Shown here: positions 82-34,033 of the stretch, one piece after another | Numbering within the stretch: the stretch's first letter is position 1 | Layout: the number at the start of each line of letters is the position of its first letter | Assembly (NCBI GenBank): GCA_016841905.1 | Contig: JAENYF010000032.1 | Coordinates: 1 to 36,783 of the forward strand | Source of the DNA: Desulfoscipio geothermicus | GTDB taxonomy: Bacteria; Bacillota; Desulfotomaculia; Desulfotomaculales; Desulfallaceae | Reading direction: 5' to 3' | DNA: 36,783 nt | The notes under the pieces: generated by a model | The model's input: the letters and a program-made list of their open reading frames with translations, nothing else | Databases searched by the model: none | What the model was told of the DNA's origin: nothing | Translations under genes and position numbers: made by a program

Positions 82-1741
82 ACCCTTTTGAAGCCAGCTC
101 AGCCTCAGCCCTAACCCCATTTTGTCGGTTAATCAGCTTCCAACGGTAAAAAATCTTCAAAACAAGCCATTGCAACCATTTTAGGCGGATACCAACTTGG
201 CTATCCGCTTTAAATTTACCGCCAGGGCCGTTAGCTTAGCTTGAATGCGCACACTTTGTAGACCGTAGCCTTTGGCTCGGTCCAACCCATGGAATCTTTT
301 TAATTCGGCATGCTTGGGTTCGATTTTCGCTCGCTTGCGGTACTCATCAAGGAATTCCGGGGTTTTAGCTCTTTGACTGTACTCATATAACTCAGGAGTA
401 TTTACGCTGACTGTCAGTAGTTTAGCTATCCGCGTACTTTTGCGTACGCACTCAGCCCGGCGAGAACAATTGCGGCAGCGCTCACGCTCAAAGCTGTAGT
501 TCAACAACTTCTCTTTCTTGCCATTTCGTTCACGGTTTTTGGCCTTTACTTTTACCGTTTCATTGCCCATGACACAAAACCATTGGTCACTGTCTTTGTT
601 GTAGCTGAACAGTTCTTCGTCTATTTTGTATGTACTGGCACTTACCGGTATATAGGCTGCAGCTTCTTTTTCCTTGATCAGATTAAGGATGTCAGGCCGG
701 AAATAGGCTTTATCTCCATATACTCCGGTCACGGTCGTCCGGCTTGAATGGTTTCCTCAAGGTGGTCTTTAAAATTGCTGCCATCAACATAAGAGCCTGG
801 TTCTACAGTAACACTGGTTATTAAACTGCCGTCGGTAGTTTGGCATATTTCTGCCTTGTAGCCGTAAAACGAACGGGTCTTGCTTTTGTAACCTACTCGG
901 GCATCTTTGTCCACCAGTGAACGTATTCCTTTTTGTTCTATGAACAGGTCGCTTGCTAAGATTTCCTGCGCTTTCTCGGTTGCTTGGATTACTGCCTCGG
1001 ATGTATCTTCCTCAACTTGTTCGATCAGGTCTTCCAGATAGTCTTTCATAACTTGTTTCGCTTCAACGTGATCTTCTATTTGCGTGTAATCCGGTATTGC
1101 ATATTCTTCCTGCTCCATGGCTTTAAATATATTTTTAGCCAACTGCTTCATGATTCGTTCGGGTACTTTTTTGATGGTGTTTGCTTCTATATGGGTGGTG
1201 TCGATTGCAATGCCGCTGCTGCTGTTAATTATGCCTTTGGCTATACATTGGCGGATGATTTCGGTGATGATGGTATCCAGGCTAATGTCTTTTAAGCGCT
1301 GGGTCCGGAATTTGGCCAGTAAGCTGGTTTCGGGGAGGGGATCTTCAGGATTAAGCCCTATAAACCATTTGTATGCCAGGTTTACGGTTAGTTCTTGGAT
1401 CAGTTGTTCATCGGACAGGTTGTATAGGTATTTTATGATCTGGATCCTGAGCATCATTTCCGGTTCTTTAGCGGGTCTGCCGAAGTTTTTGCAGTATCTA
1501 TCTGTTAATAGTTCATTGATAAAGCTGAGGGATATTGCGGCGTTTATGCGCTTTAATATGTGATCCTTCGGTATTATATGGTATAATCCAGTGTAGAAGC
1601 TTCCTTGTTTATGGGTGGTTTCAACTAGCATAAAAGGCATGCCCTCCCGTATATTTGGTTGTGGTGACTTAATTATACTTTAGGTGGGTATGCTTTTTGT
1701 GTTTTATTTTGGATTGAATTTGGACTTTTTCAGTGGTCTCG
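64..1741 (-). mobile_element. IS1182-family insertion sequence, transposase frameshifted
   Basis: The element is bounded by perfect 18-bp terminal inverted repeats, cgagaccactgaaaaagt at 64-81 and its complement at 1724-1741. It encodes an IS1182/DUF772-type DDE transposase on the minus strand, split in two reading frames. About 1.68 kb is normal for the family. No clear target-site duplication is seen: the left flank is the end of another copy and the right flank is the direct repeat of the neighbouring IS4-like element. Confidence 0.85.
181..1640 (-). pseudogene. IS1182-family transposase, split by a frameshift
   Basis: The N-terminal part (1640 down to 729, 303 codons) has the IS1182 start region (TTHKQGSFY, then the DUF772 segment with RIQIIKYLYNLSDEQLI) and the first catalytic Asp in AIDTTHIEA. 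The C-terminal part (732 down to 181) carries the second Asp in YGDKAY, a Cys-rich insertion (CRNCSRRAEC) and the catalytic Glu in EPKHAELKR. The frames overlap at 729-732: the first ends in ...AGRP-stop and the second begins GTG-ACC-GGA. Restoring one G (CCG-GTG-ACC) would read GRPVTGVYGDKAY, so a single-base deletion explains the break. No typical slippery heptamer is visible, which argues against programmed frameshifting. Probably inactive unless the two halves complement. Confidence 0.8.
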
Positions 1742-1749
1742 GACAGTCC

Positions 1750-3426
1750 CAATGTCATCAAGTTATGCAACCATAAATAGGGATTAAAAATATTTCATAA
1801 ATACACCCAAAAAAATACAAAATGACTTGACTTTTTAAAAAGAGCCCCATAATCGAAATGAGTACCATTTTATGGTATACCTTGAAATTATAGGTGATTC
1901 TAATGACTGAAAAGGGCTTTTTAGAAGGAATGCGCATTACTCAAGAGCTGATCCATGATGTTGTATTCATGTGCGAATGCCGTACCAAACCAACCTATTT
2001 TACGCGAGCTTCTAACTGTAAAATGGATTTTCAAGACCTCATTATGTTTCATCTCAACTTTATCAAAAAAACCCTTCAACTGGAATTAGACCTGTTTTTT
2101 AAAAACATTAAAGGGGATGATAAAACGATTACTAAACAGGGATATTCTTAAGCTAGGCAGAAAATATCCCCCGCCGCCTTTATCAAAATGGCTGACGCCA
2201 TAATAACTTGGTACTACGACGATGATAGTTTTAAAAAATTTATGGGGTATAGGGTTTGCGCTATTGATGCCTCCATCTTGGAACTCAACAACTCCAAGCG
2301 TTTAAGGGATGCCTTTGGTTATAGTGAAGGTAATTCAATTACTCTGGCACGTGCAAAAGCATCCGGTATTTACGACATCGAAAATGATTTAATGCTTACC
2401 TCAAAAATTACAAAATATACTACCGGGGAACGGGAAATCGCCATTGACCTAATTGAGAAACTAAAAAAAATGGGTTTAAAAAATGACCTCAATCTTTTTG
2501 ACAGGGGATACCCTTCAAAAGATTTTATCACCTATCTTGAAGATAGCGGAATTAAGCATGTTATCCGCATTTCCAGTGAAAAGATCAGGCAAGTTCATCG
2601 GGCCCAGGAGTCTGATCAAATAATTGATCTATTGGTTGGCAATAAGAAAACAGTAAAAACCAGGGTTGTGCGATTTATGCTGGACTCGGATGTGGAAGAA
2701 GTGCTTCTTACCAATTTATTTGACGAAAACATAGGCGTCCATGACTTTAAGGTGCTATATTTTAAACGCTGGGGTATCGAAACTAAATTTAATGAGCTTA
2801 AAAACCGACTTCAAATTGAAAACTTCACTGGTGATACAGTTATTGCGATAGAGCAAGATTTTTACGCATCCATTTACTTATCAAATATGGCGGCCCTGGC
2901 AAAGAGTGAAGCTAATGAAAAGATAGCCCTTGGAAATAAGGATAAAGGCTTAATGTATGGCTATAGAGTAAATGTAAATATATTGATCGGCAAGTTGAAG
3001 GATTCCCTGGTGTTTATGTTGCTGGAAGATGATCCTCAGAAACGAACTGCGATGTATAGCCGGATAATGAACGAGTTGGTGAAAAATGTGATCCCTATCC
3101 GTCCCGGAAGAAAATATAACCGAAGGAAATCCCTAAACGCCAATAAGCATTCGGCTAACCTAAAAAACAGTTTGTAGGGCGCTTAGTTAAAATCTCGGGT
3201 TCAAGACCGAGACCATCCCCAGATATAACGGGCATGCTTATAGTTTTATCCGTATGCCCCGGGTATGTTGTTGCCTTTTTTCCTAAGGAATTTTTCAAAG
3301 TTATTTTTATTTTCCGCCCTGTGATGGAAACCGGTAAGGATAAAAAACGTTGAGCCAATTTTTATATTTAGTTCTATAAAATTAAGGGTTGCTGCTAGTT
3401 ATTGGTTGCATAGCTTGATGACATTG
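1750..3426 (+). mobile_element. IS4/IS231-like insertion sequence, transposase interrupted
   Basis: Terminal inverted repeats of about 23 bp with one mismatch lie at 1750-1772 (beginning caatgtcatcaag) and 3404-3426. Both ends are flanked by the direct repeat ggacagtcc (from 1741 on the left and from 3428 on the right). The element holds one rightward transposase gene (1894-3177) with an in-frame stop and a non-coding 3' tail. The exact boundary is uncertain by one or two bases because the flanking repeat is itself palindromic. Confidence 0.8.
1894..3177 (+). pseudogene. IS4-family transposase with premature in-frame TAA
   Basis: Reading 1894-3177 in one frame gives 427 codons interrupted once, by TAA at 2149-2151; both sides are in the same frame (GYS-stop-ARQKISPAAFIKMADA). 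A change from a lysine AAA codon is the simplest explanation. The downstream 329 residues hold the catalytic domain: Asp in CAIDAS, Asp in LFDRGYPS, and the IS4 signature Y-x2-R-x3-E-x6-K in YFKRWGIETKFNELK. The upstream 85 residues resemble the N-terminal region of such transposases. The stop removes the N-terminus from any catalytic product that starts at 2188, and no good ribosome site precedes that ATG. Probably a recent, single-mutation pseudogene. Confidence 0.85.
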
Positions 3427-3586: not shown

Positions 3587-6500
3587 TCAATCCTCGCGCA
3601 AACGCAAGAGATGGGCAGGATCATAAATAGAATTGATTTTACTTGCAAACAAGGTTTGGTTCTTAATATCCTGGTCGGTTACATAATGAATGTCCAGAAG
3701 GCCATCTGTACGATAGCCTGTTCTCAAATAATTAATTTCCGATAAGGCCATGCTCCAGCCATTAAGCCATAAATCAAGCGTTTGTCTTTGCTCCGGCGTC
3801 CCCTCAAAATGAATAATTAAATCAATATCACTGTTAAGTCTTGCAGTACCGTAATTTGTGCTCCCAAACAGATAAATACCCTTTACACCGAATGCTTTAA
3901 GGTCCATCTTGGCTGAGATTTGCTCCGCCATATAATGACGCCACTTCCAACCTTGATTGTCTTTGGGATCTGTCTTATCTTCTATTTCAATCAGGTTAGC
4001 ATTGGAGTTTGCGTCGGGCTTAGCCGGATAGTCAAGATAGGCTACTGCCTTTTCTAAGTCTGCATTCATTAGAACAAATAGTTCCTGGCCATGGTAACTC
4101 TCTGCTACATTAATTACCTTGATGACATGCTCTAAATAAGCATATGCAGGCAAAATATTGACCAAAGCATTAGTACTTCGAGTGAAAAAGTAATTGGAAA
4201 ATAACACTTCGTTGTCTTCCGGATATAACGGCAAATACTTAATGTTTTCCTCAACTAAATCTTGGAAAAAATGTGTTCCAAAGGATAACTCCGGTTGGTA
4301 TTTCGATTCCTTCTTAGCGACTTCAATAAGCATCGAAGAGTTATTAATATCGGAATAGGTCACCCTTACACCTAGCTTGATATCTCCGCGGCTGCCCCAG
4401 CGGCCCGGGCCCATTAAAATAAAGCTTCGTCGCGGCAAGATGCGATTTAATTCGCCGATGGCACTTCCGACATTGACTAAGTCCTGGTGGTTTTCCAACT
4501 TACCGTATTCTTCAGGGTCAACATAAACAACCGTCTTAATGCCGGTGACCCTCCCATTAGAAACATACCGGTTGGCTGTAAAAATCATATTTTGAACAGC
4601 AATATTGGTGGGAATAGCTACAGGAACATTGCCTTGCGTTGTGCTTTGCGGACGACACTGCAGCAGATAAATATTCTCTCCATCACTTGCAAATTCAATA
4701 TCAACCGGGTAACCTAATTTTTCTTGTAAAAGTGACATTACAGAATGCAGTTGGGCAACAATTGGAGTCTTTTCAATTAATTCATCAAAGGTGATGATGA
4801 TATTATCTCTTTGAAAATCTGTAGCAAATTTATTAAGTTCAGTAATAAAATCATCTTTTAAGACTGAAGCAATATAATTGAGACGTGGGATATCATTTCC
4901 ATAATCTTTGATATATTGAGCTATTGAGATGGTCAAGAAACGGTTATTCTCTATATCCAGGACATCCATCTTCTGCGGCGAATATTTATGCATTTCCTGG
5001 GGTACCTGATTAACACGAATATTTGGTTGTCCGGGCGATATTAGCACTGGAAAATCATCGCCTACTCTATCAACCGCACGCGTTCCCAGCCCAACAACCA
5101 TACGCAGAAGGCCATCCTCACGCTTAATTCGCGGTGACCACCGAAACTCGTTATTACTAAAAGCGACGCCGGAAAAAATAGGAGCGTAATAGGGTCCTAT
5201 CCTGCAGCCAACAACTTCTTGAATCATAACTCCCATTTGGTCGGTATAATCAAGCAAATTATGTTCTATGCGATACTGGATCGAATCGGGACTAAACATC
5301 GAGGCATATACTTCAAGAATTCCATCCACCAAACTCTTAAGGCGTTCGGCTCTTGTCCCTTTATTGGTTAGGAACAAGCTTTTATATTTGCCGGAAAACG
5401 AAGAACCTAATTGATCCTCAAGCAAACTTGACGACCTTATAATTAAAGCCTTGTTCTCACTATATTCAAGAATTTGGTAGAGCTCATTCATTACATAAGG
5501 TGACAAGCGAGCATTTTTTAGAGTTTGAATAACTTTTGGATAAATAATACGTATTTCTAAAAGGTCTCTGTACTTATGTTCGTTCAGTTCATCAAGGCCA
5601 TTATCGTGGATCAGCTTGACTAATTCATCAGAAGCAATGTACCATGTTTTAGGAACCTTTATATTGGCAAATTCCGGATTATCTGCCCTGTAGTTCTTAA
5701 TGATTTGCTTAGCTAAAAATAGCCCCGCAGCCTTCCCCCCGATTTTTCCTGTACTTTTCGGAGAACAAATGAAGGTTTTCAGCAATTCACAAAAGTCTTC
5801 AACTAAAGCGTACTTTCTTGCGTTCTCAATTAACTTAGGATTATCAGTTAAAAATCTGCGTGCCAGTTCTACAATTAGCCATCTCTGCGTAGCCTTATTA
5901 TAAATGGCATTGGACTTTACAGTCTTTAAATACTTGCTCAACGCCTTTAAAACATCCTTCACGTCGGCATCCGCTTTATCAACAAGTTTTATTAAGTCAT
6001 AAGTTTTCCCCTGATATATCCATAAATTAATATAATGAAATATTTGTGAATCCTTTAAATATGTTTTAGCAACGCTAAAAACACTCTCGCTCAAACGCAG
6101 AACATCCACAGCCGGCATTTTTTCCAAAGGAAAATTGATTTCCCCCTGGTATTCATATTTGGTCCAGTTCATTTCCTGATAAATATCCCTGACTGAGTCC
6201 TGATTGTCTTTAGCCAAAAGGGCTAGTAGCTTTTCACAGACATAAAGCAGCATTTCATGGTCGGTAATCTGCAATAGTTTGACAATTGCTTCCCAATTAC
6301 TTCTTGACTCGCTTGTTTCCTGGATACTTTTTCGCTCGATCATTTGAGATATTTTTTTCGCTACGGTGTTCAGAAGCTTTTCTTCCTGCACTAAAAATAC
6401 ATTTTTATCTTCATCAACTTCATTATATGGATAGGCTGCTTGAAGGTAGCCACGAACTTCGTCCCTGACAATAATTGGGGATCGGATTTCACGATGAATT

Positions 6501-20992: not shown

Positions 20993-21679
20993 CTATTTGT
21001 TAAACCGGTACCCCGTTCCCCAGAGAGTCTCAATAAATTCCGGGTTGGCCGGATCTTTTTCTATCTTTTTTCTTATTTTTTGTATATGCACAGCTACGGT
21101 TGACGTATCTCCATAGTAATCGTTACCCCAAATAGCGGTGAGAATATGTTCTTTTGAAAAAACAATTCCGGGGTTGGCAGCAAAAAATACCAACAGCTCA
21201 TATTCCCTGGCAGTAAGCTGCACTTCATGTCCGTTGACGTACACTTTGTGAGATGCCGTGTTAATTTCCAAACCTCTGTGGATGATTACCTCGAAAGGTA
21301 CCAGGTTGCCCTTGAGCCGCTCATATCTTCTGATATGAGACTTGATCCTGGCCACCAGTTCCCCGGGGCTGAACGGCTTGGTTAGATAATCGTCGGCTCC
21401 ATATTCCAGCCCCCTGATTTTATCAATTTCCTCATCTTTGGCTGAAACCACCATCACCAAAACATCCATTCTTGCTCTTAAACTTTTAATGATTTCAAAG
21501 CCGTCTATACCAGGCAGCATCAGATCCACAATAATAACGTCATAATTACCCGTAAAAGCTTGCTGCAGTCCCTGTGCTCCATCATGGATGATGTCTGCCT
21601 TAAACCCGTTCAATTGAAGATAATCCCTCTCCAGTTCGGCAATATGAAGATCATCTTCGATAATCAAGATACGTTTCAT
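20993..21679 (-). CDS. OmpR-family response regulator
   Basis: 228 residues: a receiver domain with acidic D9/D10, phospho-acceptor D52 in IIVDLMLPG, conserved Ser/Lys in VVSAKDEE and LTKPFSP, and a C-terminal winged helix with LTAREYELLVFFAANPG and VAVHIQKIRKKIEKDP. It is the DNA-binding partner of the histidine kinase encoded immediately upstream: the ATG overlaps the kinase stop by 4 bases. Likely regulated genes are not marked in the sequence; the neighbouring His/Cys-rich protein gene is an obvious candidate. Confidence 0.93.
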   Translation of the reverse strand: MKRILIIEDDLHIAELERDYLQLNGFKADIIHDGAQGLQQAFTGNYDVIIVDLMLPGIDGFEIIKSLRARMDVLVMVVSAKDEEIDKIRGLEYGADDYLTKPFSPGELVARIKSHIRRYERLKGNLVPFEVIIHRGLEINTASHKVYVNGHEVQLTAREYELLVFFAANPGIVFSKEHILTAIWGNDYYGDTSTVAVHIQKIRKKIEKDPANPEFIETLWGTGYRFNK

Positions 21680-22875
21680 ACATAAACACCTTCCCAGTCA
21701 TCAACAAACGGCAGTGTTATGGTGAAACACGCGCCTTGGCCTTCCTCACTGGAAACCGCAATGCATCCCCCGTGGGCTTCCACAAGTTCCCTGGCAATGG
21801 CCAAACCCAGCCCGGTGCTCATCATGTCTTTGGTGCGCTCTTTATCGATACGGTAAAACCTGTCAAAAATTTTGGGGAGCTTATCTGCAGGGATACCTGG
21901 TCCGTTATCGCTAAGTCTTATACAGGCAAAGTTGCTCTGCTTGGCTAGCTCGGTTTCTATGCTTAACCCCCTCTCCGGTCCGTATTTCAAAGCATTGCCT
22001 ACAATGTTCCGCAGTGCCTGGTACATTCTTTTTCCATCCAAACAAACCGGAAGATCCTGTTCCATTTTATCGGTATAGAGAAATTGCACCCGTCTTTCTT
22101 CAAGCTCAAGTCCGATCTCTTCCGCCAGATCACGCATAAAAGCTCTAATAGACACCTTTTCAAACTGAAAATTCAACTTTTGCATATCAAGCTGTGCAAA
22201 CAGGAAAAGATCATCTATGAGCTTGTTCATATAAATAATATTATGGTGAATAATCTGCAGGTACTTCTTTTTGTTTTCCGGTGGAATACCGTCTTCATCA
22301 AGGATAGCTTCAATATACCCCTGAATGGAAGTGATGGGTGTCTTCAAGTCGTGAGAGATATTAGTAACAAGAGCTTTTCTGTTTTCTTCATATTCAGCCT
22401 TTATTCTTTCGCTATGTTCTAATTTATGAGCCATTTCATTAAAAGCAACAACCAGTAAACCAATTTCGTTACGCATCTCACATTTTACTTTTATGTTATA
22501 ATTTCCTTTAGCGATTTCTTCCACACCGCTTTTCAGCGCTTCAATAGGCTGGAAGACTCTTTTTTCCACGCGCAAAAAAAACAATACCTGTGCAATTTCT
22601 TTGGCAATAAGAAGCACTGCAATAAAAACGGCAATGGACTTTATCCCGGCCAGCTTAAAAAGCAAAAATAGAATTAAAAAGTTGAAAAGTAATGCAAAGG
22701 GGCGAAAGTAGTGCATGGATCTACGCATTCGATGAAATTCTTGGTGATCTACCCGGCGTTGCTCAAAATTCTCAAAAAAGTGCCCGTAACCTTTATGCTT
22801 GCTGTGATGGCTATACCTTTTGTGGTAACTTATAAACTTCTGAAAGAACTTGTTTAATTGCTCTTTTTTAGCCAT
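21676..22875 (-). CDS. Sensor histidine kinase with His-rich cytoplasmic N-terminus
   Basis: 399 residues from ATG at 22875 (aggtga 6 bases upstream; a GTG three codons earlier is less well placed). Residues 1-55 are hydrophilic with eight histidines (18, 23, 24, 27, 32, 44, 48, 55). Two membrane segments (about 60-78 and 80-101) are joined by only a couple of residues, so there is no extracellular sensor. HAMP follows (about 103-155), then the H box TNISHDLKTPITS (H175), N box NIVGNALKYG, G1 DNGPGIPADK, F box FDRFYRID and G2 STGLGLAIA. This is the layout of intramembrane-sensing kinases; the His cluster suggests metal or pH sensing, which is inference. Paired with the response regulator downstream. 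Confidence 0.9.
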   Translation of the reverse strand: MAKKEQLNKFFQKFISYHKRYSHHSKHKGYGHFFENFEQRRVDHQEFHRMRRSMHYFRPFALLFNFLILFLLFKLAGIKSIAVFIAVLLIAKEIAQVLFFLRVEKRVFQPIEALKSGVEEIAKGNYNIKVKCEMRNEIGLLVVAFNEMAHKLEHSERIKAEYEENRKALVTNISHDLKTPITSIQGYIEAILDEDGIPPENKKKYLQIIHHNIIYMNKLIDDLFLFAQLDMQKLNFQFEKVSIRAFMRDLAEEIGLELEERRVQFLYTDKMEQDLPVCLDGKRMYQALRNIVGNALKYGPERGLSIETELAKQSNFACIRLSDNGPGIPADKLPKIFDRFYRIDKERTKDMMSTGLGLAIARELVEAHGGCIAVSSEEGQGACFTITLPFVDDWEGVYV

Positions 22876-22913
22876 ATCGCTCACCTGCCGCCCCGGTTTT
22901 GCCGTCTTTTATC

Positions 22914-22919
22914 ATTATA
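22914..22919 (-). promoter_or_regulatory. Candidate -10 box for the two-component operon
   Basis: A perfect TATAAT on the minus strand lies about 40 bases before the kinase start. No -35 hexamer has the right spacing (TTGCCC is 20 bases away), so the assignment is tentative. Confidence 0.3.
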
Positions 22920-22978
22920 ACCTTAACCATATGATAACCGGGCAAAATATTATATTATTTTATTTTAAGATTGGAAAG

Positions 22979-23003
22979 AAAAAAAACCGGCACCTGACCG
23001 GTT
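22979..23003 (-). terminator. Terminator after the His/Cys-rich protein gene
   Basis: aaccgg / ccggtt with a 7-base loop (22985-23003) is followed leftward by eight Ts. It separates the His/Cys-rich gene from the two-component operon on the same strand. Confidence 0.75.
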
Positions 23004-23116
23004 AATTAGTTATTGATAGCCCCGGGAAACTGCTCACAAACTTTTCAATATCCCAAACGATGTTTTAAAATCATGATGGCCCCTTCCGGGCACGTTTTAG
23101 CAATGAGACTGTCTTC

Positions 23117-23797
23117 TCACAACCATGCTTGCCAGACAAAATCTAATTCTACTTGGAAATTTAGGTGGTGAGGTGCTCCAGATTCATCTTTTGTTTTTCC
23201 TTTGATATATAACAAGGCTTTTTCTATTTCATTGTTTTCATTTATACGTATTGTCAACAGGGTATTTCCGACTTCCATACCGGAAAATTCTTTAAACGCT
23301 CCATGGGAGCAATGAGCATGATGGAGAAGGGTTTTCATATCCCCGGGCATGTCGTCTAAATCCAGTGATAGCAGCGTGCTTTTATCTTCCTGCGCTTCAA
23401 TCTTCATACTGTGTAACATACTAACTGCAAACGCAAGCTTGCTAAGCTTGGCCTTTATTCCGTAACATCTCGTACTATCCTGATAGCTATGGTGGGAATA
23501 ATGACTGTGCCAACAATCAAAAACACTTCGGCGCATCAAGCTGTGCCCTTCACAGTTATCGGAACCTGCATTGCCAAACTCTGTGCTGCTTTCATGCCTC
23601 ACCTTTTTCCCCGAACAATCCGCTTCCAGGGAGACCTTGGCCTTCGTTCTCCCTTCCGCCATGTTTTTTTCAAAGGCATTGTTCATGGTAAAAATTCTTA
23701 CCTCATCTATGCTGCCTTCAACTTTGATGTTTCCTTGTACAAATTCCTTGTCTTTCATGATCGTAATAACGTCATGTAGAAGCTTTACCTTACCCAT
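23117..23797 (-). CDS. His/Cys-rich protein of unknown family
   Basis: 226 residues from ATG at 23795-23797, which has aggggggtc about 9 bases upstream; the frame opens 14 codons earlier without a site. I do not recognise the family. There is no signal peptide or membrane segment. A segment at 82-111 is dense in Cys and His (C82, H85, C95, H97, H99, H102, H103, C111), and a second cluster lies at 159-165 (HHAHCSH). The flanking regions look like beta-rich repeats with alternating hydrophobic residues (GNIKVEGSIDEVRIFTM; NTLLTIRINENNEIEKALLYI). It may bind a transition metal (inference). It lies immediately upstream of the His-rich histidine kinase. The stop is TGA, and the same frame continues for 23 codons beyond it. 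Confidence 0.65.
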   Translation of the reverse strand: MGKVKLLHDVITIMKDKEFVQGNIKVEGSIDEVRIFTMNNAFEKNMAEGRTKAKVSLEADCSGKKVRHESSTEFGNAGSDNCEGHSLMRRSVFDCWHSHYSHHSYQDSTRCYGIKAKLSKLAFAVSMLHSMKIEAQEDKSTLLSLDLDDMPGDMKTLLHHAHCSHGAFKEFSGMEVGNTLLTIRINENNEIEKALLYIKGKTKDESGAPHHLNFQVELDFVWQAWL

Positions 23798-23979
23798 TGA
23801 TATGACCCCCCTGTTTTCGATGAGGTCATTGTAAAACAATTGTTTAAACTGGATATAAAAATTTTATAAAAAAATCAAACCCATCCATCGGCCGCAATGT
23901 GTATATTACGCAGGGGTTTTTCATAAGCCAACCGGCTGACGGGCAGGCTAATAAAAAAATCAGAAGGATGTTTTGCCTT

Positions 23980-24198
23980 ATGGATACTGCCTGTGCATTA
24001 TGCAATTCTATGGAAAGACTATTCCCCAAATGTTCCTGTGGACAAATTATGCTTGACTCCGGCCCGGTAGCCGATTATTCAGGCCCGTATAGTCCTTATT
24101 ATAACCTCAGCTTTGAGAATGACTGCTGCCATCATCTTTTTACCTGCCCGTCTTGTGGAGCAGACAAAGTAATTTCCGTGCCGTTGTGTAAAGTCTAA
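23980..24198 (+). CDS. Small Cys-rich zinc-ribbon-like protein (72 aa)
   Basis: 72 residues from ATG at 23980, preceded by agaagga about 10 bases upstream; the frame is open 27 codons earlier but without a ribosome site. Cysteines fall in pairs: CALC (5-8), CSC (18-20), CC (49-50) followed by HH, and CPSC (56-59), with a last Cys at 70. This suggests one or two small zinc sites. It has no membrane segment, and I do not recognise the family. It is divergent from the His/Cys-rich gene. Confidence 0.55.
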   Translation: MDTACALCNSMERLFPKCSCGQIMLDSGPVADYSGPYSPYYNLSFENDCCHHLFTCPSCGADKVISVPLCKV

Positions 24199-24513: not shown

Positions 24514-24891
24514 TTAACCGTGAATCAACTCCGGCAGGCATTTGGTGCAAACCCAAAGACTCTGCCCCTTGTTCCGGCCGGGTAACAGGAAAACCTCTTC
24601 TTCTGTATTACCGCAGTTAAAGCAGACCTGGGGAATATAAGACCCCGGGTTTTGTTTTACATGCTCCTCCACCGCCTGCTCATTAAAAGCAACCGCTTCA
24701 CGGGTTTCCACGGTTAATGCGCCCCGAGGACAAACTCCGATGCAAAAACCGGCTCCGTCACATAACTCCTCTCTTTTAACCCTGGCCTTACCGTCTTCAA
24801 TGGTAATAGCACCTTCCACGCATGGGCTTACACATTGCCCGCAACCGTTACATTTCTCCTCGTCTATTTTAACAATTTGTCTTTTTGCCAT
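24514..24891 (-). CDS. 4Fe-4S ferredoxin with C-terminal zinc-ribbon-like tail
   Basis: 125 residues from ATG at 24889-24891 (gaggtg 7 bases upstream). The first cluster site is complete, CNGCGQCVSPC (C14, C17, C20, C24). The second has C44, C50 and C54 but Ala in place of the second Cys (CDGAGFCIGVCP). The C-terminal 40 residues carry two more Cys pairs (CFNC at 90-93, CTKC at 115-118), likely a zinc ribbon. Such proteins carry electrons in anaerobes, but partner enzymes are not encoded nearby. Divergent from the aminotransferase gene, with a CRP-like palindrome between them. Confidence 0.85.
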   Translation of the reverse strand: MAKRQIVKIDEEKCNGCGQCVSPCVEGAITIEDGKARVKREELCDGAGFCIGVCPRGALTVETREAVAFNEQAVEEHVKQNPGSYIPQVCFNCGNTEEEVFLLPGRNKGQSLWVCTKCLPELIHG

Positions 24892-25201
24892 GTTCAATCA
24901 CCTCGTTCTTTATTTTCATCATTAATATACCCCTAAAACCTGCTGTATAAAGTAATCTAGCTCGCACTATTGATGTGATATTACTCACACCTATGTGACC
25001 ACCATCTTCCGTATAGCCAGGCAGGAGAACGCTAAAACTAATTGGCAAAGAGCATAATATACCTTAGCCATCATTATTTTGTTTTTTCAGGCAGGTTTTT
25101 TTATTTTGAACCAGAAATAACCTAACAGGTTAATCATGTCTCAAGAAATATTAAGCTGAGCCTGGTATTCACCAGCACGCCATCATGGAAGGAGAGTTAT
25201 T
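24892..25201. other. Intergenic region between ferredoxin and aminotransferase
   Basis: This 310-bp divergent region has no gene I can support. It contains the perfect dyad TGTGA-N6-TCACA at 24974-24989, a further half site (tatgtgacc, about 24993) and the aminotransferase ribosome site (ggaaggagag). Confidence 0.5.
24974..24989. promoter_or_regulatory. CRP/FNR-family operator candidate
   Basis: TGTGATATTACTCACA is a perfect TGTGA-N6-TCACA dyad, the classic binding site of CRP-type regulators. It lies 85 bp from the ferredoxin start and 212 bp from the aminotransferase start, so the ferredoxin gene is the likelier target. Confidence 0.45.
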
Positions 25202-31063: not shown

Positions 31064-31873
31064 TCATGCAGCTGTTGTCCAGCGTGAGGTTAGCACCAAC
31101 ACTAAAATCAACATCAACACCAGTGTCATAACAATGGCTCCTCCAGGCGATAGGTCAAGATAAAAAGAGCACATCAAGCCAATGAGCACAGCTACCACCC
31201 CGGTGGCAACTGCAGCCACCAGGGTACCCCGAAAACTTTTAGCCAGCTGCATAGCTACAGCCACAGGCAAAACCATAAGTGATGAAACCAGCAAAATACC
31301 TACAATACGCAATGATACCGCTATGGTTAGAGCTGTTAAGGCCATAAAGCAAACGTTAATTAGCTTTACCGGCAGTCCGCTGACCAGGGCGGTTTCCTCA
31401 TCAAAGGTAATGGCAAATAACTCCTTGATAAAAACCATAGTCAGCAGCAGCACAGGGATGCCAATCAACGCTATGACATAAATATCCTCCACCGTGATCA
31501 GCACTATACTCCCAAACAGATAACTCATAATCCCACCGTTAAAGCCATTGCCTAAACCGATTATAATGGCTGCCACAGCCACCCCGGCAGATAAAACGAT
31601 CGCTATTGACAGCTCGGAATAATTTTTATATTTTTCCCGAAGTCCTTCGATCAAAAAAGAGCCGCCCAGGGCAAAGGCCGCTGCCGCCAGTACGGGCTGC
31701 GCCCCCATTAACAGACCTGCTGCTACACCAGATAGACAAACATGAGACAGGGCATCCGCAATCATGGACATCCGGCGCAGAGTAACAAACAAACCGATGA
31801 TCGGGCAAATTACACCCACCAGCAGGCCGCCCACAAGGGCACGCAGCATAAAATCGTATTGAAATATATCCAC
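31064..31873 (-). CDS. znuB: Zinc ABC transporter permease
   Basis: 269 residues with eight or so membrane segments of the ABC-3 metal permease family. Family features: ALVGGLLVGVICPIIGLFVTLRR at the N-terminus, MIADALSHVCLSGVAAG (35-51), and later SLRIVGILLVSSLMVLPVAVA. It forms the channel of a zinc (or manganese) importer with the ATPase encoded 6 bp upstream and the binding protein ZnuA. The preceding Zur-like regulator points to zinc. Confidence 0.92.
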   Translation of the reverse strand: MDIFQYDFMLRALVGGLLVGVICPIIGLFVTLRRMSMIADALSHVCLSGVAAGLLMGAQPVLAAAAFALGGSFLIEGLREKYKNYSELSIAIVLSAGVAVAAIIIGLGNGFNGGIMSYLFGSIVLITVEDIYVIALIGIPVLLLTMVFIKELFAITFDEETALVSGLPVKLINVCFMALTALTIAVSLRIVGILLVSSLMVLPVAVAMQLAKSFRGTLVAAVATGVVAVLIGLMCSFYLDLSPGGAIVMTLVLMLILVLVLTSRWTTAA

Positions 31874-31879
31874 TCGCCC

Positions 31880-32632
31880 TTACCCCCTGACCAGGCTATC
31901 GGCACAGTCCAGGCTAATTTTTTCTTGCCGGCTGTTCATGCAATCCCGCCAGCGTATTTCGCCAGGATAATAGTGGCAGCTACAAGAGCAAATCTTACGA
32001 TCCAAGCATACTCTCTTACTGGCAAAAGAGGATAGCCATTCCGATTCATGAGAGACAAGTATCATGGTAACCCCATCATTATGTAAATTTTTGATCAGCC
32101 GAGCCAAACCGGCTAAGTTAGCGGCATCTACACCATTAGTAGGCTCATCCATGATTAAAACCCGAGGCTGTACCGCCAGAGCGCGGGCAATCATTACCCT
32201 TTGCTGCTGCCCCCCGGATAACTCGCACATTGCGGCGTTACGTTGAGACAGCATATTCACCCGCTCTAGCGCCTCCTCCGCACAACGTTTATCCTCCCGC
32301 CCCAAAAAGCGGAACAAGCCGCGCATTGCCGCCCGACCCGATAGCACCACTTCTAACACCGTAGCCGGATAGCTGCGATTGATTAGAGTAGCTTTTTGAG
32401 AAACATACCCAATCTTGTGTCGGTCTTTAAATTTATTCACCGGCACCCCAAAAATTTTCACTTCCCCGGACTGAGGTTTAATTAACCCCATAATTACGTA
32501 AAGCAGCGTGCTTTTACCAGCGCCATTGGGACCGGTGATACCTACCACCTCACCCTCTTGCACATGCAGGGAAATGCCATCCAGCACCGGATGGCAACCG
32601 TAAGTAAAATGTACATCAGTTAATTCAATCAT
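31880..32632 (-). CDS. znuC: Zinc ABC transporter ATP-binding protein
   Basis: 250 residues. Walker A GPNGAGKST (34-42), Q-loop VSQK, ABC signature LSGGQQQR, Walker B VLIMDEPTN and H-loop VSHES are all present. The C-terminal 40 residues are Cys-rich (CLDRKICSCSCHYY), as in several ZnuC proteins, and could sense or bind zinc. It powers uptake through ZnuB; it lies 5 bp after znuA. Confidence 0.93.
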   Translation of the reverse strand: MIELTDVHFTYGCHPVLDGISLHVQEGEVVGITGPNGAGKSTLLYVIMGLIKPQSGEVKIFGVPVNKFKDRHKIGYVSQKATLINRSYPATVLEVVLSGRAAMRGLFRFLGREDKRCAEEALERVNMLSQRNAAMCELSGGQQQRVMIARALAVQPRVLIMDEPTNGVDAANLAGLARLIKNLHNDGVTMILVSHESEWLSSFASKRVCLDRKICSCSCHYYPGEIRWRDCMNSRQEKISLDCADSLVRG

Positions 32633-32637
32633 CGTAA

Positions 32638-33597
32638 TTATTTCACCCCCAGGGCCAAGGCAAGATTCCGTAGATTTTCCTCCATCACTGTTAAGTAATC
32701 TTTGCCCTCCTGTCTCTCCTCGGGAGTAACACCACCCAAGGGGTTCAACACCAGTGTTTCGGTACCTGCTTCCCGGGCAATCACTTCCGATACCCGCGGA
32801 CTGACCAGGGCTTCAAAAAAGACATACTTGATACCGGTCTGACGGGCAATTTGAATTATTTCCGTCATGCGGGCCGGGCTGGGATCCGCATCCGGAGAAA
32901 GCCCCCGGATAGCCACCTGTTCCAAATTATACCGGTGGGCCAGGTAACCAAAGGCGGCATGGGAAACTATAAATTTACGTATAGCAGCCCCGTTCAAAGT
33001 TGCTGCATATTTTTTATCCAAAGCTTTTAACTGTTCCTGATACTGCCGGGCATGGTCATTATAGTAAACAGCATTATCCGGATCTGCCTTTTGGAGACCT
33101 AAGAGTATGTTATCCACCATCAAACAGGCGTTATGGGGATCCAGCCAAATATGCGGGTCCAGGTTCGAATTCAGCGCTTCTTTGTCATTGTGGGAATCAC
33201 CGTCTGCATGACCATCCCCGGACAGCAGTTCAACACCCGCGCTGCAGTCCACCAGTACCGGTCCATCCTCTTTAAGTGTGCCCAGTAGCTTTTGCAGCCA
33301 TGTTTCCATACCCACTCCGTTATAAATGATCACATCGGCCTTCTGTATATTAACCATATCCCGGGGTGACGGCTCCCAATCATGGGGTTCCGCTCCATCA
33401 GGCACCAGCTGCACCACCCGAGCTTTATCACCGCATACTTGCGTGCCAAAATCATAAACCGGATAGATAGTTGCGTAAACCAGCAAATCATCCCCTACCG
33501 AGCCTGTTACTTCCTGCTCGGAGGTACCCGAACAGCCAGTGAGCGAAAGACTAACTAATAACCAAATTAATCCCCATAACACAGTTGCTTTGCGCAA
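32638..33597 (-). CDS. znuA: Zinc-binding lipoprotein of the ABC importer
   Basis: 319 residues. A lipoprotein signal with lipobox LTGC (Cys22) anchors it to the outside of the membrane. Metal ligands of the cluster A-I family are His in EPHDWEPSPRD, His in DPHIWLDPHNA, His in FIVSHAAFGY and a C-terminal Asp/Glu. Before the second site there is an His/Asp-rich loop (GDGHADGDSHNDK) typical of zinc-specific binding proteins. The start is TTG at 33595-33597 with aaaggagg upstream, 4 bp after the zur stop. Confidence 0.94.
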   Translation of the reverse strand: MRKATVLWGLIWLLVSLSLTGCSGTSEQEVTGSVGDDLLVYATIYPVYDFGTQVCGDKARVVQLVPDGAEPHDWEPSPRDMVNIQKADVIIYNGVGMETWLQKLLGTLKEDGPVLVDCSAGVELLSGDGHADGDSHNDKEALNSNLDPHIWLDPHNACLMVDNILLGLQKADPDNAVYYNDHARQYQEQLKALDKKYAATLNGAAIRKFIVSHAAFGYLAHRYNLEQVAIRGLSPDADPSPARMTEIIQIARQTGIKYVFFEALVSPRVSEVIAREAGTETLVLNPLGGVTPEERQEGKDYLTVMEENLRNLALALGVK

Positions 33598-33601
33598 TTA
33601 C

Positions 33602-34033
33602 CTAATCCTCCTTTTTTGAGCACCGGGCACAGTAGCCAAAGATTTCAAAGTTATGCCTGGTAATAGCAAAATTTTTATCCTTGATTTGTTGTTGATCAAG
33701 ATAATCCAAGGGGCAAAAATCTACCTCCTCGGAACTGCCGCAATTTAGGCAAATTAAATGATGCCGGTGACCGACCTTTTCCACCAGTTTATATCTGCCT
33801 TTGCCATCGCCAAAATCCGTCTTATCCAGCATCTCCAGCTGCTCCAACACACCTACATTACGATAAACGGTATCCACACTCAGGTTCGGGAATCGCGCTG
33901 ATATCTTGCCGTGAATATCCTCAACCGTCATATGCCTGTTCTCCTGTACCATCACATTGATAATTTCCTGGCGCTGGGGGGTTATTTTATAACCATGCTC
34001 TTTAAACTTAACTAAAATATCCTGTATGATCAA
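33602..34033 (-). CDS. zur: Fur-family metal regulator, probably Zur
   Basis: 143 residues: N-terminal winged helix (TPQRQEIINVMVQ ... TVYRNVGVLEQLEML) and C-terminal dimer domain with the regulatory HRHHLICLNCG (H89, H91, H92, C95, C98) and a second Cys pair CARC (135-138) for structural zinc. As first gene of the znu operon it is expected to repress the operon when zinc is plentiful. Fur or PerR identity cannot be excluded from sequence alone, but the operon supports Zur. TTG start, with taggag about 10 bases upstream. Confidence 0.88.
   Translation of the reverse strand: MIIQDILVKFKEHGYKITPQRQEIINVMVQENRHMTVEDIHGKISARFPNLSVDTVYRNVGVLEQLEMLDKTDFGDGKGRYKLVEKVGHRHHLICLNCGSSEEVDFCPLDYLDQQQIKDKNFAITRHNFEIFGYCARCSKKED

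Follow-up and report, generated by a model that had tools for sequence, protein, structure and literature searches.

In a 36,783-nucleotide stretch of DNA from Desulfoscipio geothermicus (contig JAENYF010000032.1; hereafter the window), three genes on the minus strand are transcribed in the order orphan, kinase, regulator. They encode a 226-residue protein without Pfam or NCBIfam family (the orphan; 23117-23797), a histidine kinase (21676-22875 from its ATG, with an alternative GTG start possible at 22884) and an OmpR-type response regulator with the Pfam domains receiver and Trans_reg_C (20993-21679). Judging from genome comparison, the three genes are inherited together and mostly decay together. 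The kinase and the orphan are both rich in histidine (His), and a compact repeat array, the putative operator of the regulator, precedes the operon. We tentatively propose, giving this somewhat less than an even chance, that these genes form an autoregulated kinase system that senses metal or redox conditions on the cytoplasmic side of the membrane and has the orphan as its main output.

The orphan was present in 10 of 60 relatives, in 18 of 113 genomes of the same order and in 13 of 398 genomes of the phylum; these sets overlap and together hold 28 distinct orphan genomes (genomes are given below as G numbers, loci as L numbers). The carriers are scattered Bacillota genomes, including that of the cultured Desulfotruncus arcticus, a member of the window's family, whose strain DSM 17038 possesses the orphan, the ferredoxin described below, the kinase and the regulator. 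In agreement with the co-occurrence looked for by an earlier reading of this DNA (the original prediction), orphan, kinase and regulator stand together on one strand in 20 of the 28 orphan genomes, are split in one and decayed in seven. Among the 60 relatives, nine had both orphan and kinase, one the orphan only (G046) and none the kinase only (Fisher test, 7e-10), and among the 398 phylum genomes, with kinase matches of 140 bits or more counted and those of 66 bits or fewer left out, 12 had both, one the orphan only and three the kinase only (2e-19); both tests treat genomes as independent, and relatedness is uncorrected. Two of the nine relatives with both genes do not have them as intact neighbours, G048 being split and G036 broken. 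Over 20 genomes, the identities of the orphan and of the kinase correlated at 0.89, which mostly reflects shared descent, relatedness being uncorrected here too.

The incomplete loci took several forms. In G048, the orphan locus lies far from the kinase-regulator locus, and the same repeat array is found upstream of both, the stand-alone kinase included. A deletion runs from the orphan into the kinase in G036 and G097. The loci of G046 and G191 are broken beside genes that read as transposases, and genome searches found no kinase of this family in these two genomes. Orphan and kinase are truncated in G100; G102 keeps fragments, the kinase not being found in the stretch read; and G104 lost the N-terminal half of the orphan and kept ferredoxin, kinase and regulator. 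In a further genome, G026, all that is left is the repeat array and the initial orphan codons, fused to the DNA-binding half of the regulator.

The array, seen ahead of the orphan in 25 aligned loci, consists of TTTAWA units repeated every 11 bp and stops about 10 bp short of a -10 element that resembles TATAATGACC. In the window (23824-23879, minus strand), it comprises three TTTATA/TTTAAA units and a degenerate fourth, followed by the -10-like TACAATGACC. Pairs of TTTA 11 bp apart numbered 59, versus 2.8 in shuffles, an excess inflated by related sequences, and further peaks appeared at 22 and 33. The shared motif that had been suggested upstream of 23797 was thus found: counting G102 (51.9 bits) and G097 (45.3 bits), the array precedes the orphan in 27 of the 28 orphan genomes. 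G104, where the orphan start is lost, had no match to the operator model. On the simplest reading of these sequences, the array is the putative operator of the regulator and this operon its chief target; other strong sites were few in the genomes searched.

The operator model was built on 26 training sequences, which it matches by construction, and was used to score 84-150 candidates per genome overall, 84 in the search of the 60 relatives. Its best match was the orphan's upstream site in 23 of 24 carrier genomes. Within the window, the operon's own site gave an E of 1.4e-11 and the next match one of 0.03. Twelve matches of at least 39.9 bits were found in the 60 relatives, confined to the 10 orphan genomes, and most of these are training sequences. 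Matches independent of the training set were those of G102, of G097 (a near copy of G036), of the third of three strong sites in G048 and of G026 (32.2 bits). The best G048 site precedes a TetR gene and an RND operon (RND by Pfam). Kinases without the orphan were also preceded by matches, of 28.0 bits in G419 and 24.8 in G446, and by a weaker one (18.8 bits) in G218. Furthermore, in G046, G036 and G002 (L114, L115, L149), a weaker related array lies between a paralogous kinase-regulator pair and a divergent RND efflux operon.

A wide regulon found no support in the window's genome, where no convincing second site was seen (next matches at E of at least 0.54) among the 150 of 2,282 first-look candidates scored, a coverage that leaves room for weaker or missed sites. 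Weak matches in G044 and G296 (inside open reading frames, ORFs, or at their ends) and in G025 (no clear target) are probably due to chance. A weak site in G035, a genome without the orphan, lies between a FeoB-like gene and a DtxR-like ORF (L148, about 4803-4849; 26.7 bits); no match at E 0.02 was present in G053, the one congener searched. Another, in G455 (L111, 1501-1547; 20.2 bits), lies about 170 bp before a DtxR-like ORF and faces away from it. Other weak matches in the search of the 60 relatives (16.9-22.3 bits) were those of G014, G019, G022, G027, G032, G042, G043, G056 and G057.

The Pfam scan of the kinase identified HAMP, HisKA and HATPase_c domains and no sensor domain. Its hydrophobic stretch is centred on residues 63-94, and the predicted model (mean pLDDT 74) shows a helix at 31-75, a turn at 76-77 and a helix at 78-122. 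The original prediction had described the kinase as virtually devoid of an extracellular loop, and indeed these data indicate a single membrane hairpin (about residues 59-97; 22585-22701, minus strand), broken in the model only at 76-77, with almost no loop outside. All residues invariant across 22 kinases, the phospho-acceptor His included, are intact in the window's copy. The hairpin is preceded by a His-rich segment (residues 1-57; 22705-22875, minus strand), and the count of eight His in the first 55 residues, given earlier, is correct from the ATG (positions 18, 23, 24, 27, 32, 44, 48 and 55). The family motif is H44-x2-F47-x3-H51-x6-R58-P59, each of its five residues being shared by at least 90% of 21 kinases. 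By the positive-inside argument, the His of the kinase would lie on the cytoplasmic side.

The window's orphan contains 14 His and 5 cysteines (Cys) in total. As had been noticed, many of these form two dense clusters, at residues 78-111 (23465-23566, minus strand; five His and three Cys) and 159-166 (23300-23323, minus strand; four His and one Cys). Both coincide with stretches left disordered in the predicted model. We compared this richness with 391 ORFs of at least 150 residues from the window and 37 loci, a background drawn from the same loci rather than from a whole proteome, in which some loci are near copies of one another and from which an overlap filter had removed a few family genes masked by antisense frames. 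At least seven His in the first 55 residues were found in 14 of these ORFs, all of them this kinase in different genomes, and at least seven His in some 35-residue stretch in 39, of which 37 were this kinase or the orphan. By this comparison of sequences, the His-richness of the two proteins is not due to chance. Across the family, the N-terminus of 22 aligned kinases holds 3-13 His within 26-102 residues, and 21 full-length aligned orphans carry most of their His in the two loops, with 1-5 in the core (156-187 residues). The window's orphan is among the His-poorest of its family, no 35-residue stretch of it having more than 5 His.

Pfam gave no family for the orphan at an E of 1, and NCBIfam gave one match, far under its cut-off, which bore out its earlier description as a protein of unknown family; 22 family members searched against both collections yielded weak and inconsistent matches. 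A profile search of solved structures by sequence found no relative (best E 0.63). The orphan model, predicted from 22 sequences (mean pLDDT 78), has an ordered core with a helix, four long strands, a helix, short elements and three long strands. Foldseek placed LprG at ranks 1 and 2 (3mh9, E 8e-6, probability 1.00), with TM-scores of only 0.37-0.43, followed by a Staphylococcus hypothetical protein and, at rank 23, by a protein named after the LolA superfamily; many other matches were unrelated barrels. These modest scores suggest that the predicted core resembles the LprG/LolA half-barrel. Inspection by eye of the 21 aligned orphans with a preserved N-terminus showed no signal peptide. A role of the orphan as cargo of mobile elements was unsupported, since none of 72,556 plasmid and 50,697 phage records contained a match to it.

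Some relatives have further operon members. Of the 18 orphan genomes of the order, 11 carry a gene for a 2[4Fe-4S] ferredoxin behind the orphan, and a twelfth, G102, keeps a fragment of one. In the window, directly after the orphan stop (23060-23101, minus strand), we found the last part of this ferredoxin, identical to that of a relative at 12 of 13 residues; as read from these residues, the gene is deleted except for its tail. The window's copy, without ferredoxin, with one degenerate repeat and with Arg at position 51 of the kinase (R51), may be a weakened member of the family. Different, weakly similar ferredoxins occur after the regulator in G446 and before ABC-2 genes in G218. Strong ferredoxin matches were also found in G009 and G022, genomes without the orphan; in G022, a ferredoxin relative with a His-rich tail (L145, 5937-6362) has neighbours that look, on reading, like genes for a membrane protein, a molybdoenzyme and a MerR regulator. 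In-frame TAG codons reported in the ferredoxins of G038, G078 and G074, taken as possible pyrrolysine codons, are ordinary stop codons after the last residues. A Fur-family gene belongs to the operon in G101 and G064, follows orphan and ferredoxin in G048 and follows the regulator in G413. The operon Fur tested matches Pfam FUR with 112 bits, and its closest solved structure is a Fur (9ire); the G064 copy is closer to true Fur than to PerR or Zur, with 148 bits against an NCBIfam Fur cut-off of 220. Unlike these operons, that of the window has no Fur.

Intramembrane-sensing kinases are defined in an excerpt of PMC4388633 as having two transmembrane helices, a linker of less than 25 residues and no extracytoplasmic domain. 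By its hydrophobic stretch, predicted helices and Pfam domains, the window's kinase corresponds to this definition. Like LiaS, BceS and SaeS of Firmicutes, it has two membrane helices, a very short linker, no sensor domain outside and, in the orphan, a candidate accessory gene in its operon. Unlike them, it carries a HAMP domain and a His-rich extension before the first helix (26-102 residues in 22 members), and the product of the candidate accessory gene is a soluble, His/Cys-rich protein instead of LiaF or a transporter of the Bce type. Because they lack a sensor domain, intramembrane-sensing kinases are thought to need partners. The narrow, self-directed putative operator is reminiscent of LiaRS.

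CzcRS, CusRS and SilRS (TIGR01386, TIGR01387) likewise pair a HisKA-HATPase kinase with an OmpR-type regulator, and a metal signal is proposed here as well. However, the heavy-metal kinases CzcS, SilS and CopS have a periplasmic metal-binding sensor domain, whereas almost no loop separates the helices in this kinase. Its score against TIGR01386 was 140.3 bits (cut-off 292.55), and that of the regulator against the heavy-metal two-component NCBIfam model was 183 bits (cut-off 279), both below the family cut-offs. To our knowledge, two-component metal sensors sense outside the membrane. The regulator has the two domains of OmpR/PhoB proteins, and direct repeats make up its putative operator. The orphan may share the fold of the LolA/LprG/VioE superfamily, as its two top Foldseek matches suggest, and differs from it by the low TM-scores, the two long His/Cys loops, the lack of a sequence match to a solved structure and, by reading, of a signal peptide. 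Most LolA/LprG superfamily members carry an export signal, the cytoplasmic enzyme VioE being an exception. The loop-less kinase-regulator pair is of a known kind; what is new is the His-rich, presumably cytoplasmic end, the compact putative operator and the orphan, which represents a protein family without Pfam or NCBIfam model. We found no description of such a kinase-orphan pair in the open-access literature. A kinase of this shape with a conserved His-rich cytoplasmic end, a single conserved partner and a single compact operator would make it possible to test directly whether such kinases sense in the cytoplasm.

From these features we infer autoregulation, cytoplasmic sensing, metal binding and a role of the orphan as output. 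In the proposed mechanism, the His-rich segment before the hairpin would bind a divalent metal or respond to redox damage, and this signal would tilt the hairpin and the HAMP domain and so alter kinase activity. The phosphorylated regulator would bind the 11-bp array and turn on its own operon, which would make the orphan the main output. The orphan, a predicted cytoplasmic half-barrel with His/Cys loops, would buffer the same metal, or hand it over, and thereby damp the kinase. A narrower version is possible but rather doubtful: metal alone would be read in the cytoplasm, the His-rich juxtamembrane segment driving the loop-less hairpin, and the orphan would be a cytoplasmic LolA-like metallochaperone or buffer with feedback on the kinase, an Fe-S protein and Fur being optional. 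Iron is favoured as the metal, though unproven, because the operons of some relatives hold the Fur-type gene and the 4Fe-4S ferredoxin (both optional).

Several observations weigh against cytoplasmic metal or redox sensing with the orphan as output. Individual His and Cys positions are mostly unconserved; loop lengths and His positions drift across the family, composition being kept rather than position; and the window's kinase has R51 where at least 90% of its relatives have His. The kinase occurs without the orphan in 3 of the 15 phylum genomes with a clear kinase match (G419, G446 and G218). Outside the order, none of the 10 orphan genomes showed the ferredoxin next to the orphan, only 5 of the 11 operon ferredoxins have at least three His before their first cluster motif, and Fur is intact in only 4 of the 28 orphan genomes, with a fragment in one (G034). 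Finally, no consistent metal-transporter neighbour was found by reading of the loci, and several genomes have exporters close to the locus, exporters also adjoining related operators. The original prediction was to be given up if the genes, or the His/Cys residues, were not co-conserved in homologues. Since the genes are co-conserved and the rich His/Cys character is kept in both proteins, it survives in this respect, single positions apart. Its broader claim of an undescribed metal- or redox-responsive system is partly supported, by the co-conservation and by the ferredoxin and Fur-type gene of some relatives; the signal might instead be envelope or drug stress.

This chief rival, which we regard as unlikely and nevertheless serious, supposes a kinase of the classical intramembrane-sensing type that perceives perturbation of the membrane by lipophilic compounds or drugs, or takes its cue from an exporter; the orphan half-barrel would bind an amphiphile in the cytoplasm and the His clusters would be secondary. 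The hairpin with almost no loop fits this explanation, and so does the top fold match of the orphan, LprG; this is a LolA superfamily protein, and an excerpt of PMC6363788 describes binding of hydrophobic ligands for that superfamily. Reading of the surroundings of the locus revealed exporter-like genes in G039, G034, G038, G078 and G074, kinases without the orphan adjoin ABC-2 exporters in G419 (Pfam) and G218 (by reading), and the strong operator copy of G048 before the TetR gene and RND operon points in the same direction. Yet reading showed no exporter around further intact loci, those of G044 and G296 among them, the exporter counts are raw, and envelope stress leaves the His-richness of both proteins unexplained.

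A sensor of redox state or Fe-S damage, with the ferredoxin as sensing or output partner (for oxygen, nitric oxide or peroxide) and His/Cys loops that protect or rebuild metal sites, appears improbable. Within the order, no extra gene joins the operon more often than the ferredoxin, the other ferredoxins of G446 and G218 are in keeping with this idea, and genes that read like hybrid-cluster proteins occur near the locus in G100, G102 and G101 (one family) and near the third G048 operator site. However, the ferredoxin was not seen next to the orphan outside the order, as mentioned above, and the three core genes of the window are still open after its deletion. It is very improbable that the kinase is a pH sensor whose His-rich juxtamembrane segment titrates near neutral pH: this would agree with a His composition that is kept while positions drift, but leaves Cys, ferredoxin and Fur unexplained. 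That His-rich genes are neighbours by chance, with no functional link, is hardly credible and is contradicted by the co-occurrence, the shared putative operator and the joint decay.

Other features of the window were also noted. A second, different 4Fe-4S ferredoxin lies upstream of the orphan (24514-24897, minus strand) and reads like ferredoxins that adjoin hybrid-cluster-protein-like genes in L060 and L062. Divergent from the orphan is a 99-residue ORF containing Cys and His (23899-24198, plus strand), a candidate gene without Pfam or NCBIfam family. About 7 kb from the operon, at 31064-34033 (minus strand), lies an ABC operon that resembles zinc-uptake systems and includes a Fur-family regulator, the transporter genes being named by reading. 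At the left end, two ORFs read as transposase-like, one at 181-1640 (minus strand), apparently in two pieces, and one at 2188-3177 (plus strand).

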